From the NCBI GenBank assembly GCA_020832345.1, contig JAFIEY010000154.1, positions 1-32,061 on the forward strand: DNA of 32,061 bases, written 5' to 3'. This document shows, one piece after another, positions 4,287 to 29,191 of this stretch. A model generated the notes under the pieces. It worked only from the letters and a program-made list of their open reading frames with translations. It was not told where the DNA came from and searched no databases. Positions within the stretch are counted from its first letter, which is position 1; the number at the start of each line of letters is the position of its first letter. The position numbers and the translations under genes are program-made. This stretch comes from Cryomorphaceae bacterium (GTDB lineage: Bacteria > Bacteroidota > Bacteroidia > Flavobacteriales > Schleiferiaceae).

Positions 4287-4341
4287 GAGCCCACTCTAAA
4301 AAGGAAGATTTTGGCAGAAAGAGACTTTTTAGAGCAGACTC
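4287..4341 (+). mobile_element. MITE-like element, copy B (55 bp, internal deletion)
   Basis: Both termini are present (GAGCCCACTCTAAAAAGGA on the left; reverse complement GAGTCTGCTCTAAAAAGTC on the right) but the middle is gone. The join is at AAGGAAGATTTTGG. In full copies AAGGATGATTT (near the left end) and AAGGAAGATTT (near the right end) form a near-identical direct pair, so the deletion looks like recombination between them. No target duplication can be seen now (AAGTAT / AGATTT). The right end is 6 bp from the stop codon of the 373-aa gene. Confidence 0.75.
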
Positions 4342-5530: not shown

Positions 5531-5610
5531 GAGTCCATTTCAAAAAGGATGATTTCAATCAAAACCGACGTGGAGGATTTTAGCAGAAAGGGACTTTTTG
5601 GAGTGGACTC
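5531..5610 (+). mobile_element. MITE-like element, copy C (80 bp, internal deletion)
   Basis: Left end GAGTCCATTTCAAAAAGGA continues into GATTTCAATCAAAACCGACG; right end in reverse complement is GAGTCCACTCCAAAAAGTCC. About 50 bases between the left half and TTTTAGCAGAAAGG are missing compared with full copies. The flanks ACGTTT and ATGGTT match at four of six positions, so any target duplication has decayed. The right end lies 21 bp from the gldC stop, in the same orientation towards its gene as copies B, D, E and F. Confidence 0.75.
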
Positions 5611-13387: not shown

Positions 13388-14065
13388 TTAATCTGCTTGG
13401 AAAAACTTATAAACCATTCCGGCCAAAGCTGCTCCAACAATAGGTATAACAATGAATAACCACAACTGTGAAATGGCCCAGTCACCGACAAAGATGGCTT
13501 GACTGATACTCCTAGCAGGGTTAACGGAAGTGTTGGTAACGGGTATGCTAATCAAATGAATAAGGGTAAGTGCAAGACCAATGGCCAAGCCGGCAAAACC
13601 TTTTGGTGCCCTTTCATCTGTTGCGCCTAAAATAATAAGTAAAAACATAAAGGTCATAACCAATTCGGTAACAATGGCAGCCATCATACTGTAGCCACCC
13701 GGGGAGTGATCCCCATAGCCATTTGCCGCAAAAGAACCGATTTCACTGCCATTACCTGTAACAATAATATACAGAATGCCGGCAGCGGAAATCCCGCCCA
13801 ATACTTGGGAAATAATATAAGGAAGAATTTCTTTAGCGCTAATTCTTCCGCCCATCCATAAGCCTATGGTTACAGCGGGATTTAAGTGTGCGCCTGAAAT
13901 GTGCCCCATGGCGTAGGCAATGGTTAGAACGGTTAGACCAAACGCGAGAGAAACCCCCACAAGTCCAATACCCACTTCTGGGAATCCAGCTGCTAAAACA
14001 GCACTTCCACAACCCCCCAGAACCAACCAAAATGTTCCAAGAAATTCAGCTAATTGATTTTTCAT
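13388..14065 (-). CDS. aqpZ: Aquaporin Z-type water channel
   Basis: Six-helix inner-membrane channel of the MIP family. Both NPA loops are present: [10 protein letters not shown] (about residue 58) and [10 protein letters not shown] (about residue 177). The histidine of LIHLISIP and the Arg after the second NPA are the positions that make the narrow water-selective filter in AqpZ, so a water channel is favoured over a glycerol facilitator. Start chosen at ATG 14065 ([18 protein letters not shown]), which begins at the usual place for the family; 14095 adds ten residues without support. It converges with the acetyltransferase gene, and a 440-bp gene-free leader region lies upstream. Confidence 0.94.
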
Positions 14066-14507
14066 GATTAATTTTAATAAAGTTTTCCTACTCATAAGGC
14101 TTTTCGGGGACGCCCCGTTTTTTTGAGTGGATTCCGGCCTCCACTTTCCAATAATGCAACCAACTTTGCAGTAGTCATTATCGATGGCCGAAAATACAAA
14201 ACAATATGTTTTTTATTGACTAAAATTTAACTTTAGAAAAAGTTTTACAAATTTATCAGCTGTGTAAAATGGATGCAGTTTTCTATTATGCAGTAATTTG
14301 AGGTTATAATTATGGTAGAATAAATCCTACTAACGGGAAGTTGTATGTTTGCATGAAATACGAATAATTGATTGGGTTTTGGGAATACAATTAGCGTATC
14401 CTTTGGTCTCTCATAGCTAATGTACATGGATACTTCATCCGAAAAACCAAAACCTAATTTCTGATAATTCGATTGTGTAATTTATCTGATAAAATGATAC
14501 TAAGTAT
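14066..14507. other. Gene-free region upstream of aqpZ
   Basis: I see no gene or tRNA in these 442 bases. It holds a strong G/C hairpin with a T-run on the plus strand (14105-14124), and a minus-strand TAAATTTG box (14248-14255, matching TAnnTTTG) that could start aqpZ transcription and leave a leader of roughly 175 bases containing that hairpin. The rest is AT-rich and unstructured to my eye. Confidence 0.4.
14105..14124 (+). terminator. Hairpin with T-run, terminator-like
   Basis: CGGGG-ACG-CCCCG (14105-14117) followed by seven T residues. On the plus strand this is a compact intrinsic terminator, although the nearest plus-strand gene (acetyltransferase) ends 750 bp earlier and the transcript would have to cross aqpZ in antisense. 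On the minus strand the same hairpin would lie 40 bases ahead of the aqpZ start codon. Confidence 0.45.
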
Positions 14508-23113: not shown

Positions 23114-26100
23114 ATGGAAAATCCAATGCAAAAATGCCTTTCCAGTTTTATTATATTTTTGAACTTAGGTTTTTTACCCCTGTTTGCGCAAAACTTTGAC
23201 TTTTTGGACGCTTTTCATTTTGGCGACGGAAAGGGGCAAAATAGCGAGGTCATGCATATTCATTCTTTTCAAAACAATGATATTCTATTGGTCGGGAAAT
23301 TTAACGGACTTTACGATTTTGATCTCGACAGTTCAAATCAAAACTTGCAATTCTCCCCATCTTTTAATAGCGGACAGTTTATGGCCCGTTATACGCAATC
23401 CGGTGAATTGGTTTGGGTGCGTCCGATTATTAGTCCCAGTCAAGTCATTTTTTATGGCATTACCCTCGATAGTCTTGACAATATCTTCGTTACCGGAGTT
23501 TTTGTGCCTTCGGTTTCGTTTACGCCCGGAAATCCCGCACATACCCTTCAGGGAAATAATCCTAATAATGGCAACGGCTTCCTGGCCAAGTTTAACGATC
23601 AGGGTGAATATTTGTGGTCCAATATGTTTTCCGGTAATGGGGTAGATGCCGGAATGGATATAAAAATCAATAGTCAAGGTAATATCATCGTATTGGGGCA
23701 CGTCAGTCAAACAGTGACCTTTGAAAGTGGAAACCCTTCTTCAGTGGTGGTCAGTGCTGGGTCAGCGGATATTTTTATCGCATCTTATGATCCATCCGGA
23801 CAATTTCAATGGGTCAATAGTATCCCTGGTGTGGGGGTTGACAATGCTCGTTCCATGGCTTTGGACGCTCAAGATAATATTTACATTATGGGGGATTTTA
23901 CATCTACCATTACCTTTCCAACCTCACCTCCAACGCCTACGGTCACAACCGGAGCTAACGATGTTTTTTTTGCACGATTTACGCCTAATGGAGATTGTTT
24001 GTGGGGAAAGAAAGTAGGCGGAACTTCCACCGACTTAGGCAGCCATCTCACGCTCGTTGGTGATACCACAATTGTAATAAACGGAAATTATCGGCTCAAT
24101 ATTCAGTTTGATCATGGGGGAAGCACACCTTCCTTTACCACACCAAACTCTAGCGCGGATGTATTTATGGCGGCTTACGATACCAGTGGTGGATACCTTT
24201 GGAATGTTCGATTTGGCAGCAGTGGACAAGACGAATCCTTTCAAACTGCTTTGGATGATTCAAACCGAATTTGGATTACCGGTCAAGTGCGACAATCTGG
24301 AAATTTAGATCCCGATGGCGCTACAGCACCTATTGGTTATAATACAGTTGGTAATCCATACTTAGCTGCATTTAATGTTCATAATGGCAATTACGAAAAG
24401 TCATTTGCGCCTGAGAGTCAGTTGTTGGCATCATACCATGCGGTGCATTGCGCACCAGATGGTTCCATTTATGGAGGAGGCCGGTTTCGTTCCGAAATGG
24501 ATTTAAATCCCAGTGGATCACCGTTTTTATTCCAAACGCCACAAACCAATATAACAGGTGCTTTTTGGGCAAAATACCACCAAGACTTGGACACCGCATG
24601 GATGCTTGGAATCCGAAAGGGTGGTGATGAAGAAATTCGCCGGGTTGAACACGATGCGCAGGGAAATGTTTTTATTGCCGGTATTTTTGAAGGCACGATA
24701 GATTTTAATCCCGGAGATACCAATCGGGTTTTAAAAAGTGCTTATGACGCAGTGGATTGTTTTGTAGCCTCATACACACCCAATGGCGAATTGCGCTGGG
24801 TACAAACTTTTGGTGGACAGGGAGATGATTTTCTCACGGCCTTTCGGGTAGATCCATCGGGAAATGTTTTTCTTGGCGGTCATTTTTGGGAAACCTTTCT
24901 CATGCCAAATGGAAATGGTTACGACACGTTGGTTCCCGTGATTTCTGGTGTGCTGCTTCGCCCGGATGCGTTTTTTATCAAACTCGACAATAACGGGAAT
25001 TTCATTTATGGCAATCAAATTGGAGGGGCCAATGACGATTTTATCAATGATTTTGGATTTTTTGGTAATGGGGATATGGTCATTACCGGAGATTTTCGGG
25101 GAGGAATGGATTTTGATCCCGCTTTATTGGGACAAAATACTTTTAGCGGAAATAATTCGGTGGCCTATTTTGCAAGGTATTCTGCGCAAGGACAATTTCT
25201 CTGGGCAAAATTAATCAATGGTTCAAGCAACCAATTTGGTCAATCGGTTTTTGTAGATCAGCAAGATAATATTCTGTTGACCGGTGCCCATCGAGGTACC
25301 ACTGATTTTGATCCGGGATCAGGGACTTTTCCTATTGTAAGCAACGGATCAAGTGATGATGTGTTTGTAGCAAAATATAACTCAATTGGTGATCTTACTT
25401 GGGCAAAAGGATTTGGCAGTACGCCATTTTCCAGGGGTTTTGGTATTTCAGCTGATGCCAATGAAAATGTGTATTTGACGGGGAATTTTTCCAATACAAC
25501 AGATTTTAACCCCGGGGGTACACCCACATTAATTACCTCCAATGGTAACACCGATGTATTTGTGATGAAATTATCCGCAGCCGGCAATTTACAATGGGTC
25601 GTTCCTTTTGGCGGCCCCCAAGAAGATGCTCCGCGGGATTTAAAACTTTTTGGTGATAAAATTTATACCACCGGATTTTTTCAGGGATCTGTGGATTTTA
25701 ACCACGGACAGGATTCGCTAATATTGACAAGCAATTCACTTCGAGATATGTATTTACACGTATTGGATACAATGGGTAATTTTTTCAATGCAGTGGCTTT
25801 AGGCGGAAATGGCAACGATTATGGTTTGGGAATAAGTCATTTTGCCGGAAATACGTATGTAGGTGGTTTTTTTGCCAATAATTTTGATGCGAATCCTGGC
25901 CTACAAAGTTTTGAGTTGAACAGTTTGGGAGGTAGAGATGCATTTTTGGTTAAACTCGGAAATGCCGGGCCTTGTCCCACCGTTTACGATACCCTGTTTG
26001 TAACCGAATGTGATGTTTTCTTTTGGAACAACGAAAGTTTCACTGAATCAGGGCGTTATTCCCGGGTTTTAACCTCACCACTCGGTTGCGATTCAATTGT

Positions 26101-27328
26101 TACGCTGGAACTTAATCTCGGATTCTCTTTTGATACCGCTTCTGTGGTTACAGCCTGCGATGCCTATTCATGGAAAGGTCAAACTTACGAGCAATCCGGT
26201 ATGTATTACGATTCACTTTTAAGTCAAACTGGTTGCGACTCAGTTTTGGTTTTAAACCTAACCATCGATCATGCTTTTTCAGATACCCTTTTGGCAACAT
26301 CCTGTAATGAATATCAGTGGCGTGGCCAAACCTATACCCAATCCGGAATATTTGTAGATTCCCTATTAAATTCCAATGGTTGTGATTCTGTATTTTTATT
26401 ACATCTAACCATTGATTCCGGATATGTTTCTCACCAAACGATAACTGCTTGTGATTCGTTTTTTTGGCGGGGACAAACTTTTACGCAAAGCGGTGTTTAC
26501 ACGGACTCACTGTTTAATTCCAACGGTTGCGATTCTGTCTTTGTGTTAGATTTATTGATCGACACAGGGTATGTGATGAATCAATCGGCAACTTCTTGTG
26601 GCAGCTATTCCTGGCGCGGAAAGGTGTTTTCCCAAAGTGGGGTTTATCGAGACTCCCTACTAAATGCCAACGGTTGTGACTCTGTATTTCAATTACATTT
26701 AAATATTGACACAGGATATAATAATTTGCAAACAATTTCGGCATGTAAATTTTATAATTTAGGCGGCCAAATTATTATTCAATCCGGACTTTACATTGAT
26801 TCACTGGTTAATTCCAACGGCTGTGACTCAATTATCGCGTGGCAAATTACCATTGATACAGTTGATGTTAGGGTAAATCAAAACGATCAATTTTTGGAAG
26901 CGCAGGCGGCAAATGCGCAATTTCAATGGTTGAATTGTCAGACGGGTTTTTCTCCTATTGCCGGCGAAACGCAATCCAACTTTACAGCCTTAGTAAATGG
27001 TGATTATGCAGTGGAGGTAAATGATGGTATCTGCACAGATACATCAGATTGTTTTACCGTGAATAATATTGGGATAGATGGATTTGACCAAAACAATATT
27101 CGTATTTTTCCCAATCCCGGAAATGGCGTATTTTTTATTGAAATTCCGAAAATTTCCGGTGCGGTAAATTTGAATATAATGGATGCCACCGGCAGTGTGT
27201 TGTACCATCGGGTAAGTGAGGCACAAGAGATGATGACTTTTCAATTGGATGTAGCTGCCGGCACCTATTTTGTGCGAATAGCGCATGATTTATTTTTACA
27301 CACTCAACGCATTATTGTGATAAAATAA
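23114..27328 (+). CDS. T9SS surface protein: beta-propeller plus six Cys modules, 1404 aa
   Basis: Signal peptide near the start (KCLSSFIIFLNLGFLPLFAQ); ATG 23126 is an alternative. Residues about 30-955 are SBBP-like beta-propeller blades with repeated phrases such as DFDPGSGTF, DFNPGGTP, FVASYTPNGELRWV and FGGQGDDF, giving a dozen or more repeats. Residues about 957-1250 are six tandem modules of roughly 49 residues with the pattern TACD..YSW.GQTY..SG.Y.DSL...NGCDS...L.L.ID, each with two conserved cysteines that could form a disulfide. A T9SS sorting domain ends the protein (IRIFPNPGNGVFFIEI to the final Lys). Probably a secreted, cell-surface adhesin or scaffold; target unknown. It follows repeat copy D. 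Confidence 0.92.
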   Translation: MENPMQKCLSSFIIFLNLGFLPLFAQNFDFLDAFHFGDGKGQNSEVMHIHSFQNNDILLVGKFNGLYDFDLDSSNQNLQFSPSFNSGQFMARYTQSGELVWVRPIISPSQVIFYGITLDSLDNIFVTGVFVPSVSFTPGNPAHTLQGNNPNNGNGFLAKFNDQGEYLWSNMFSGNGVDAGMDIKINSQGNIIVLGHVSQTVTFESGNPSSVVVSAGSADIFIASYDPSGQFQWVNSIPGVGVDNARSMALDAQDNIYIMGDFTSTITFPTSPPTPTVTTGANDVFFARFTPNGDCLWGKKVGGTSTDLGSHLTLVGDTTIVINGNYRLNIQFDHGGSTPSFTTPNSSADVFMAAYDTSGGYLWNVRFGSSGQDESFQTALDDSNRIWITGQVRQSGNLDPDGATAPIGYNTVGNPYLAAFNVHNGNYEKSFAPESQLLASYHAVHCAPDGSIYGGGRFRSEMDLNPSGSPFLFQTPQTNITGAFWAKYHQDLDTAWMLGIRKGGDEEIRRVEHDAQGNVFIAGIFEGTIDFNPGDTNRVLKSAYDAVDCFVASYTPNGELRWVQTFGGQGDDFLTAFRVDPSGNVFLGGHFWETFLMPNGNGYDTLVPVISGVLLRPDAFFIKLDNNGNFIYGNQIGGANDDFINDFGFFGNGDMVITGDFRGGMDFDPALLGQNTFSGNNSVAYFARYSAQGQFLWAKLINGSSNQFGQSVFVDQQDNILLTGAHRGTTDFDPGSGTFPIVSNGSSDDVFVAKYNSIGDLTWAKGFGSTPFSRGFGISADANENVYLTGNFSNTTDFNPGGTPTLITSNGNTDVFVMKLSAAGNLQWVVPFGGPQEDAPRDLKLFGDKIYTTGFFQGSVDFNHGQDSLILTSNSLRDMYLHVLDTMGNFFNAVALGGNGNDYGLGISHFAGNTYVGGFFANNFDANPGLQSFELNSLGGRDAFLVKLGNAGPCPTVYDTLFVTECDVFFWNNESFTESGRYSRVLTSPLGCDSIVTLELNLGFSFDTASVVTACDAYSWKGQTYEQSGMYYDSLLSQTGCDSVLVLNLTIDHAFSDTLLATSCNEYQWRGQTYTQSGIFVDSLLNSNGCDSVFLLHLTIDSGYVSHQTITACDSFFWRGQTFTQSGVYTDSLFNSNGCDSVFVLDLLIDTGYVMNQSATSCGSYSWRGKVFSQSGVYRDSLLNANGCDSVFQLHLNIDTGYNNLQTISACKFYNLGGQIIIQSGLYIDSLVNSNGCDSIIAWQITIDTVDVRVNQNDQFLEAQAANAQFQWLNCQTGFSPIAGETQSNFTALVNGDYAVEVNDGICTDTSDCFTVNNIGIDGFDQNNIRIFPNPGNGVFFIEIPKISGAVNLNIMDATGSVLYHRVSEAQEMMTFQLDVAAGTYFVRIAHDLFLHTQRIIVIK
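25984..26866 (+). repeat. Six tandem 147-bp coding repeats
   Basis: The DNA encodes six consecutive modules of about 49 codons, each containing GGTTGYGA(C/T)TC for the GCDS string. The first and sixth are the most diverged (NNESFTESG and NLGGQIIIQSG in place of WRGQTYTQSG), while modules 3-5 are the most alike, which suggests recent internal duplication in the centre. Confidence 0.8.
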
Positions 27329-27394
27329 ATGCTTTTCGCAAAGTATCTGGTCATTTGAGGTTTTTAATCACTTCCCTTTTACCGACTTAATTTT

Positions 27395-27519
27395 GAGTCC
27401 ACTTTAAAAAGGATGATTTCAATCAAAATCGAGGGAATTTTTGAAACGGAGCAAGTGAGGATTCAAAAGTCTATCGACAAGGAAGATTTTGGCAGAAAGG
27501 GACATTTTAGAGCAGACTC
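27395..27519 (+). mobile_element. MITE-like element, copy E (125 bp, overlaps a stop codon)
   Basis: Full-length copy without the inner CTAAC hairpin. Left end GAGTCCACTTTAAAAAGGA; right end in reverse complement GAGTCTGCTCTAAAATGTCC. Flanked by perfect 6-bp repeats AATTTT (27389-27394 and 27520-27525). The terminal bases form the TGA stop of the 557-aa minus-strand gene. It sits between two convergent genes. Confidence 0.85.
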
Positions 27520-29191
27520 AATTTTTAATAAGTCTATGCTGAAATCTGCGTCCATCTTCCAAAATAAATTCCAGGATATACACGCCACTTTTCAGTCTGT
27601 TGATGTCGATGGTTTTTTCTTCTGCTTCTTCTAACCAGCCTTCTTCGGTTCGAATGCCCCGCATATCGATAAACTGGTAAGCGACGCGCCCCTTTGATGC
27701 AGGATTTACCAAGGTGAGTTCATCGTTTGCCGGATTGGGGAAGAATTTTGGATTCAGTCGGAAGTCCTTAAAGTCTGCGGTAGATACAAATCCGCCACAA
27801 TCCTCTGCCCAAATCGCTATTAGCATGGTATCGGGATAAAGCCTAAACCCACAAAGTGTTTGTAAAGGATTTGCAGAATCCTGAACTATGAGCATAAAAT
27901 GCCAACCATTGTACTGGAAAGGTTGGGCCAACGAAATGATCAATTCATCCGATGCACTTGGATTTCCGAGCGACACATCCTGAATTGGAACAAATTGTGT
28001 GTCCGGCCCCATGATTTGGAAGCTTGTATTCGCAAAGTTATCAGGAGCCATATTATTTGCCATTTTAATTAAAATGGTTGAATCCTGACAATAGTAGTCT
28101 AACACCGGTAGTTCATAAGCAAAACTCGTAGGCGATGGATTGTGAATAATGGAATCTTCAGGTGTGTATCCCATAAAAAACACCCTTTTGTCTGTGGGAA
28201 CCAGATCGACTTTTTGATTGGGAACAGGGGAGGAGCTGCTTGTACTGAGAATAGAACTTGTAACTGTTGGTTGACTACAAGTACCTACGGCAGAGGTCAG
28301 GGTTTCTCGAAAAATCCTGCTCACTACATGATATGATGAGTCTGCTGCAACATAACGATAACGGGTGACAGTCACTACTTTTATAAAACTCCCGGTTATT
28401 CCCGTAGAGGTAAAAGTTATGTTTCCGTTTGATTGGTTGATTTGAATGGTGTCTTCAACCATTCCATAAGGTTTTTCCCGGCTAAACCCTGAAGCATATA
28501 CAGCTATTGGGAAGGCTGGTTCTTCGGGGCAATTATCTGAACCTGTACTGCGTATTTGACCAATTTGAAAGTGAATGGAGTCCTGACCAACATCTTGAAT
28601 GGTATTTAAAAGGGTTACATTTTGATTTACGCAAAATGATTCCATAGGATCAGTAGTAAATTGTGGTGAGCTAACATTGCCAAAGGTATTATTGAGAACC
28701 GCCATTAAATGAATATTATTAGCATTTGGGCCATAAGAGCTTATGTTTGTGATGTTACTAAACCCAATTCGACAGCAAACCACTGAGTGATTAAACCTAT
28801 AATCACTGCAAACCCCGGGAAGTATAACCGTGTTTGTATAAGTCGCTTTTTGAATTGGCGTAAAGTCTGGCGAGACTGTTTCACCACAATTGTAATTTGT
28901 CAAAGGTCCACCTGCGGTGGTATAACCAGGATCTAAATTTGCCGTTATATTCAAATCAGGAAAACAAGAACTAGAAATACATATTGGTGTTGACGAAGGA
29001 AATCCAAGGGCGGTGTATCGCAACGTCTTATAAAGTGTAATCTTAACCTCATAATGATGTGAAATATTGGTAGAGTCACCAATATACCTATAGGTTAAAG
29101 TTCCCCCGGTGATGTGTGCAGCACTTGCCTGAATGGAGAATCCAAAAATTAGGAGGAAGCTAAAAACGAAGTGGTGTAGTTTTGCATTCAT
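27518..29191 (-). CDS. T9SS-secreted surface protein, 557 aa
   Basis: Signal peptide (MNAKLHHFVFSFLLIFGFSIQASA) followed by the conserved mature start HITGGTLTYRYIGDSTN, which I know from a common but uncharacterised Bacteroidota surface family. The middle is beta-rich with paired cysteines (ICISSSCFPD, CSDYRFNHSVVCCRIG). The last 85 residues are a T9SS sorting domain: KFFPNPANDELTLVNPASKG to LIKN. Its stop codon is TGA formed by the end of repeat copy E; before the insertion it would have been TAA at the same codon, so the protein is unchanged. A perfect -7 box lies 46 bp upstream of the start. Confidence 0.9.
   Translation of the reverse strand: MNAKLHHFVFSFLLIFGFSIQASAAHITGGTLTYRYIGDSTNISHHYEVKITLYKTLRYTALGFPSSTPICISSSCFPDLNITANLDPGYTTAGGPLTNYNCGETVSPDFTPIQKATYTNTVILPGVCSDYRFNHSVVCCRIGFSNITNISSYGPNANNIHLMAVLNNTFGNVSSPQFTTDPMESFCVNQNVTLLNTIQDVGQDSIHFQIGQIRSTGSDNCPEEPAFPIAVYASGFSREKPYGMVEDTIQINQSNGNITFTSTGITGSFIKVVTVTRYRYVAADSSYHVVSRIFRETLTSAVGTCSQPTVTSSILSTSSSSPVPNQKVDLVPTDKRVFFMGYTPEDSIIHNPSPTSFAYELPVLDYYCQDSTILIKMANNMAPDNFANTSFQIMGPDTQFVPIQDVSLGNPSASDELIISLAQPFQYNGWHFMLIVQDSANPLQTLCGFRLYPDTMLIAIWAEDCGGFVSTADFKDFRLNPKFFPNPANDELTLVNPASKGRVAYQFIDMRGIRTEEGWLEEAEEKTIDINRLKSGVYILEFILEDGRRFQHRLIKN

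Follow-up and report, generated by a model that had tools for sequence, protein, structure and literature searches.

The gene for a 557-aa protein in a Cryomorphaceae bacterium ends in a TGA stop codon that is shared between a MITE-like element, here called copy E, and its target site, the T belonging to the duplicated target and the GA to the end of the element. The flanks, when joined, suggest that the gene ended in TAA at the same codon before the insertion and that the length of the protein was left unchanged. We consider it very likely that this stop reflects the insertion of a non-autonomous MITE-like element at a 6-bp target together with ordinary selection against gene damage, with no dedicated stop-rescue property. 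Copy E lies in a 32,061-nt stretch of the host genome (GenBank assembly GCA_020832345.1, contig JAFIEY010000154.1, positions 1 to 32,061; family Schleiferiaceae), which was analysed as a whole and is referred to below as the window.

Copy E and the end of the 557-aa gene

Copy E (27395..27519, plus strand) is a non-coding element of 125 bp with the termini GAGTC/GACTC; as read in the window, it starts with GAGTCC and runs to GCAGACTC. It is bordered by two copies of AATTTT, on the left at 27389..27394 and on the right at 27520..27525, an exact repeat that represents the target-site duplication. The left terminal inverted repeat of 16 nt (27395..27410, plus strand) matches the right end at 12 of 16 positions, and the right terminal inverted repeat (27504..27519, minus strand) reads GAGTCTGCTCTAAAAT on the minus strand, with a TAA 10 nt in, in a second phase. 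The two repeats form the outer stem in the predicted fold, and copy E with its duplications has an RNA fold z-score of -4.57. An Rfam search at the gathering threshold gave no match to copy E. Elsewhere in the window, Rfam detects a DUF805 RNA (RF03081) at 14081-14149 on the minus strand (72.5 bits, with a gathering threshold of 51.1), which overlaps the start of the ORF at 13388-14095, presumably aquaporin-like to judge from its sequence.

The 557-aa gene (27518..29191, minus strand) encodes a protein with a type IX secretion sorting domain at its C-terminus (PF18962, residues 484-547), and the gene's convergent neighbour of 1404 aa (23114..27328, plus strand) has a Por_Secre_tail domain as well. 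On the minus strand, the 557-aa gene ends CTT ATT AAA AAT TGA GTC, which gives the C-terminus LIKN and places the present stop at 27518..27520. In silico removal of copy E and one AATTTT yields CTT ATT AAA AAT TAA GTC GG, in which the AA at 27387..27388 (minus strand) would complete the earlier TAA with the T of the target. The exact duplication and the joined flanks agree with the original prediction that copy E split a TAA and that a TGA was rebuilt in its place.

We infer the earlier TAA from the joined flanks because no real empty site was found: the 4 other genomes of the same genus that were searched gave no DNA match to the 600-bp flank, and a scan of genome contigs with the 557-aa protein returned no confirmed relative. 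More distant homologues (34-36% identity) stood in for the empty site in the comparison of C-termini. Three of them from the same genus, two in genome G003 and one in G002, reach residue 556, and their stops, TAA and TAG in the two G003 copies and TGA in G002, all fall in the alignment column of LIKN; the G001 homologue runs off its contig. Among the three paralogues checked in the same genome, two end in the column of LIKN and one ends 3 residues later. The agreement of all three same-genus homologues makes it probable that LIKN is native and that the protein kept its length, as had been predicted. Comparison with relatives, proposed beforehand as a check, thus yielded a shared stop column, but no true empty site.

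Copy E very likely arose when a non-autonomous MITE-like DNA transposon, of a kind that produces 6-bp duplications, inserted at this site. On the strand of the gene, the target reads AAAATT and overlaps both final sense codons as well as the T of TAA. A staggered cut with subsequent gap filling would have set the GAG of the element directly behind this T, turning TAA into TGA at the same codon and leaving the protein as it was.

The element family and its target

A pattern search with at most 3 mismatches located 377 left ends and 480 right ends across the genome, counts that include some short or one-ended forms, whereas reversed control patterns had 0 matches in the genome at the same threshold. 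A sample of 121 stretches, covering 1.6 of 4.0 Mb with the window included and picked in part for known copies, contained 238 distinct matches, of which 167 are full length and 154 have flanks. The commonest lengths among these 154 copies are 125, 136, 142, and 131 bp, and the consensus ends of the family are GAGTCCACTCYAAAAA and GAGTCTGCTCYAAAAA. Matches occur in 4 of the 88 genomes searched in the family of the host, namely, the host genome, two genomes of the same genus, and one of another genus. Short or right-end-only forms lie in the window at 4299-4341 and 5564-5610, and 47 partial matches were found. At two loci (L076:1796-2000 and L074:162-352), a full element and a partial right end are arranged in tandem, separated by a single copy of the 6-bp target, which would be expected had the element inserted beside a copy already in place. 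Several contigs of genome G000 begin or end inside an element copy (e.g., C78:109-138, C79:109-138, and C101:112-141), and the repeat seems to break the assembly.

The 6-bp duplication is exact in 83 of the 154 sampled copies and has at most 1 mismatch in 103. It is not a product of chance, because an exact 6-bp repeat stands beside 49 of 90 full copies as opposed to approximately 1.7 per 90 when the right flanks are shuffled. Duplications of 6 bp adjoin copies in related genomes too (L091, L092, and L094). Duplications and copy numbers together suggest that the family is mobile. As for the enzyme, DDE_Tnp_1 matches at six places in the genome; within the flanks retrieved, no such match falls between paired element ends, and at a single locus (L148) a whole element lies close by. 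The profile search of the genome gave no match for PF00872, PF12762, or PF07592, the last of which matched in no control genome either. Helper transposases from PF01609, PF07592, PF00872, and PF12762 were considered and set aside, none being linked to element ends.

The target logo, built from 81 copies, is symmetric and near-palindromic, with A at the first position (0.92), T at the last (0.92), and a preference for TTA before and TAA after, which amounts to an A/T-rich target of about TTA-AANNTT-TAA. The base adjoining the element is T at 135 of the 154 left junctions and at 140 of the 154 right ones. Because the target almost invariably ends in T and the element starts with GAG at either end, TGA is present at most junctions (249 of the 308 sampled), where it would act as a stop in one of the three phases. 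This bears out the earlier claim that the element end, read as TGAGTC, provides a stop whenever it falls in phase behind a T.

The two ends covary at base 11. Counted in the 148 copies that have C or T at both ends, among the 154 full copies in the window and L051-L193, 68 are T/T, 60 are C/C, and 20 are mixed (Fisher P 3e-20), and the coupling cuts across the length classes of 125, 131, 136, and 142 bp. Eight copies examined in related genomes comprise two T/T (L091 and L094), three C/C (L092, L095, and L098), one mixed (L096), and two whose ends are ill set. The pattern could reflect two subfamilies, symmetric ends needed by the transposase, or hairpin-based repair.

Stop codons inside the element ends

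In phase 2, a stop occurs within 15 nt at 129 of 154 left and 126 of 154 right ends (share in shuffles, 0.41), and in phase 1 at 79 of 154 ends on either side (0.29). The corresponding figures for phase 0 are 3 of 154 on the left and 2 of 154 on the right (0.31), and this phase is open for at least 36 nt in most copies. In phase 1, CTC TAA occurs 10 nt into the element at 74 left and 75 right ends of 154. Thus, two phases meet an early stop in the element ends and the third stays open, which is a property of the sequence of the ends.

Could the ends have evolved as low-damage landings, the junction TGA and the TAA 10 nt inside (T followed by GAGTCnnCTCTAA) closing two of the three phases within 13 nt so that insertions at gene 3' ends are tolerated? 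The early stops in phases 2 and 1 are consistent with such a history, and so is the three-phase average for a stop within 15 nt, approximately 0.46 on the left and 0.45 on the right versus 0.34 in shuffles, although the shuffles were by single bases and kept only the left flank. However, phase 0 is almost devoid of early stops, approximately half of the ends lack the TAA 10 nt in, and the TGA depends on the T of the target and on a GAG that is presumably needed by the transposase. On balance, we judge this history quite improbable, an assessment that also takes in the gene ends considered below.

Gene ends and insertion registers

Among the 154 copies, 28 gene 3' ends at 26 elements, called with a home-made gene caller and few in number, extend to the target or the element. 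The gene's own stop is intact upstream in 17 of the 28, and in 9 of these (8 TAA and 1 TGA) the presumed duplication begins with the last base of the stop. The other 11, likewise a small set, have their stop at the junction or within the element: 4 in phase 2 (the junction), 6 in phase 1, and 1 in phase 0. Duplications are poor, with at least 2 mismatches, in 4 of the 11 (L055, L167, L086 14428, and L141), so that the reading of the empty site is unsure for them; without these, the counts for phases 2, 1, and 0 become 2, 4, and 1. The four junction-phase stops consist of three TGA and one TAA, the latter at L167 in a copy with a variant end.

Copy E is the only case in which the stop codon is changed, the length kept, and the duplication intact. 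At L141, where the gene call is weak and the duplication has 2 mismatches, the stop is at the same distance and the tail is different. The three genes other than the 557-aa gene that have a junction stop would have lost 23 to 36 codons according to the joined flanks, two of the three having poor duplications; at L078, the present protein, which exceeds 1600 residues, has RKVIINK as its end at the junction TGA, and the joined flanks read 36 codons further. In four other genes, the ends SLL, SPL, or GPL come from the element, one gene gains 18 residues, and another loses one residue and has its tail changed. With altered C-termini of this kind elsewhere in the sample, the 557-aa gene might also be supposed to have had no TAA at this point, a longer or shorter C-terminus having been cut or extended by the insertion. 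We regard this as highly improbable, given that the duplication at copy E is exact, that the joined flanks give TAA at that very codon, and that the homologues share the stop column.

The registers of insertion at gene ends were set against a null of target preference, obtained by scoring each register around 923 gene ends that lack an element nearby with a weight matrix derived from 86 insertions remote from called gene 3' ends (registers -5 to 8, with 20 insertions observed). The same-stop register, 5, in which the T of TAA is followed by GA instead of AA, holds a single insertion, copy E itself, versus 2.3 expected of 20, and the junction phase accounts for 4 of the 11 gene ends versus an expected share of 0.363. 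Neither is over-represented relative to the target-weighted expectation, and the rebuilt stop is thus not above chance. Dedicated stop rescue is unsupported by either test, and the suggestion that the supply of a stop may make 3'-end insertion harmless finds no backing in the same counts. The coincidence with the stop of the 557-aa gene would instead stem from target preference and ordinary selection against gene-damaging insertions.

The clearest departure from the null is a deficit of insertions in the read-through register. Register 6, in which the stop is pushed away and the reading frame runs on into the element, has 1 insertion versus 5.6 expected, and register -2 has 9 versus 4.5 (1 of the 10 at register 6, binomial P 0.004, a post hoc comparison of small numbers). 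The deficit in phase 0 (1 of 11; P 0.06 or 0.02 by the range of the null) is post hoc and based on small numbers as well. The fit of the null is uneven, with 2 insertions, one having a poor duplication, versus 0.08 expected in register 3, none versus 2.3 in register -3, and 2 versus 0.6 in register -5. It is probable that insertions abolishing a stop are purged, in line with purifying selection. The use of phases 2 and 1 by 10 of the 11 genes that end at or in the element, together with the depleted read-through register, would also fit ends shaped as low-damage landings, but host selection alone suffices for the depletion. That selection has kept the paired stops symmetric at the two ends as a soft-landing device, one that lets the family spread through the gene 3' ends of a compact genome while read-through-phase insertions are purged, seems quite improbable to us.

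Relation to known repeats

In Streptococcus pneumoniae, the stop codon lies inside the BOX repeat in 36 of 58 overlapping genes, and for truncated proteins from such genes the description points to no strong evidence (PMC3049150). The present family supplies gene stop codons, as BOX does, and by that description the two are alike in that a short interspersed repeat at the extreme 3' end of a gene encodes its stop (PMC3049150). Unlike in BOX, the stop of the present family is explained by a symmetric 6-bp target and the element end. MITEAba12 of Acinetobacter, which measures 113 bp, has stops in all six consensus frames, and one copy ends a gene prematurely; as described, it resembles the present family in being non-autonomous and in having terminal inverted repeats (PMC6382973). 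The same description gives it 9-bp duplications and the proposed helper ISAba12 (PMC6382973), whereas the present family has 6-bp duplications and no helper was found among the families searched. In Coxiella burnetii, QMITE2 is described as adding 33 residues to enhC in one strain, an in-frame insertion at the 3' end of the gene that changes both the C-terminus and the stop (PMC5896051). In contrast, copy E appears to leave the length of the protein unchanged.

Given the precedents of BOX, MITEAba12, and QMITE2, repeats that supply gene stops are a known phenomenon, and copy E is a tidy but ordinary case that leaves the general view unchanged. It illustrates the joint formation of stop codons at insertion junctions by target sequence and transposon terminus. 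With several hundred ends in one genome, the cost of landing becomes countable for each stop-codon register.
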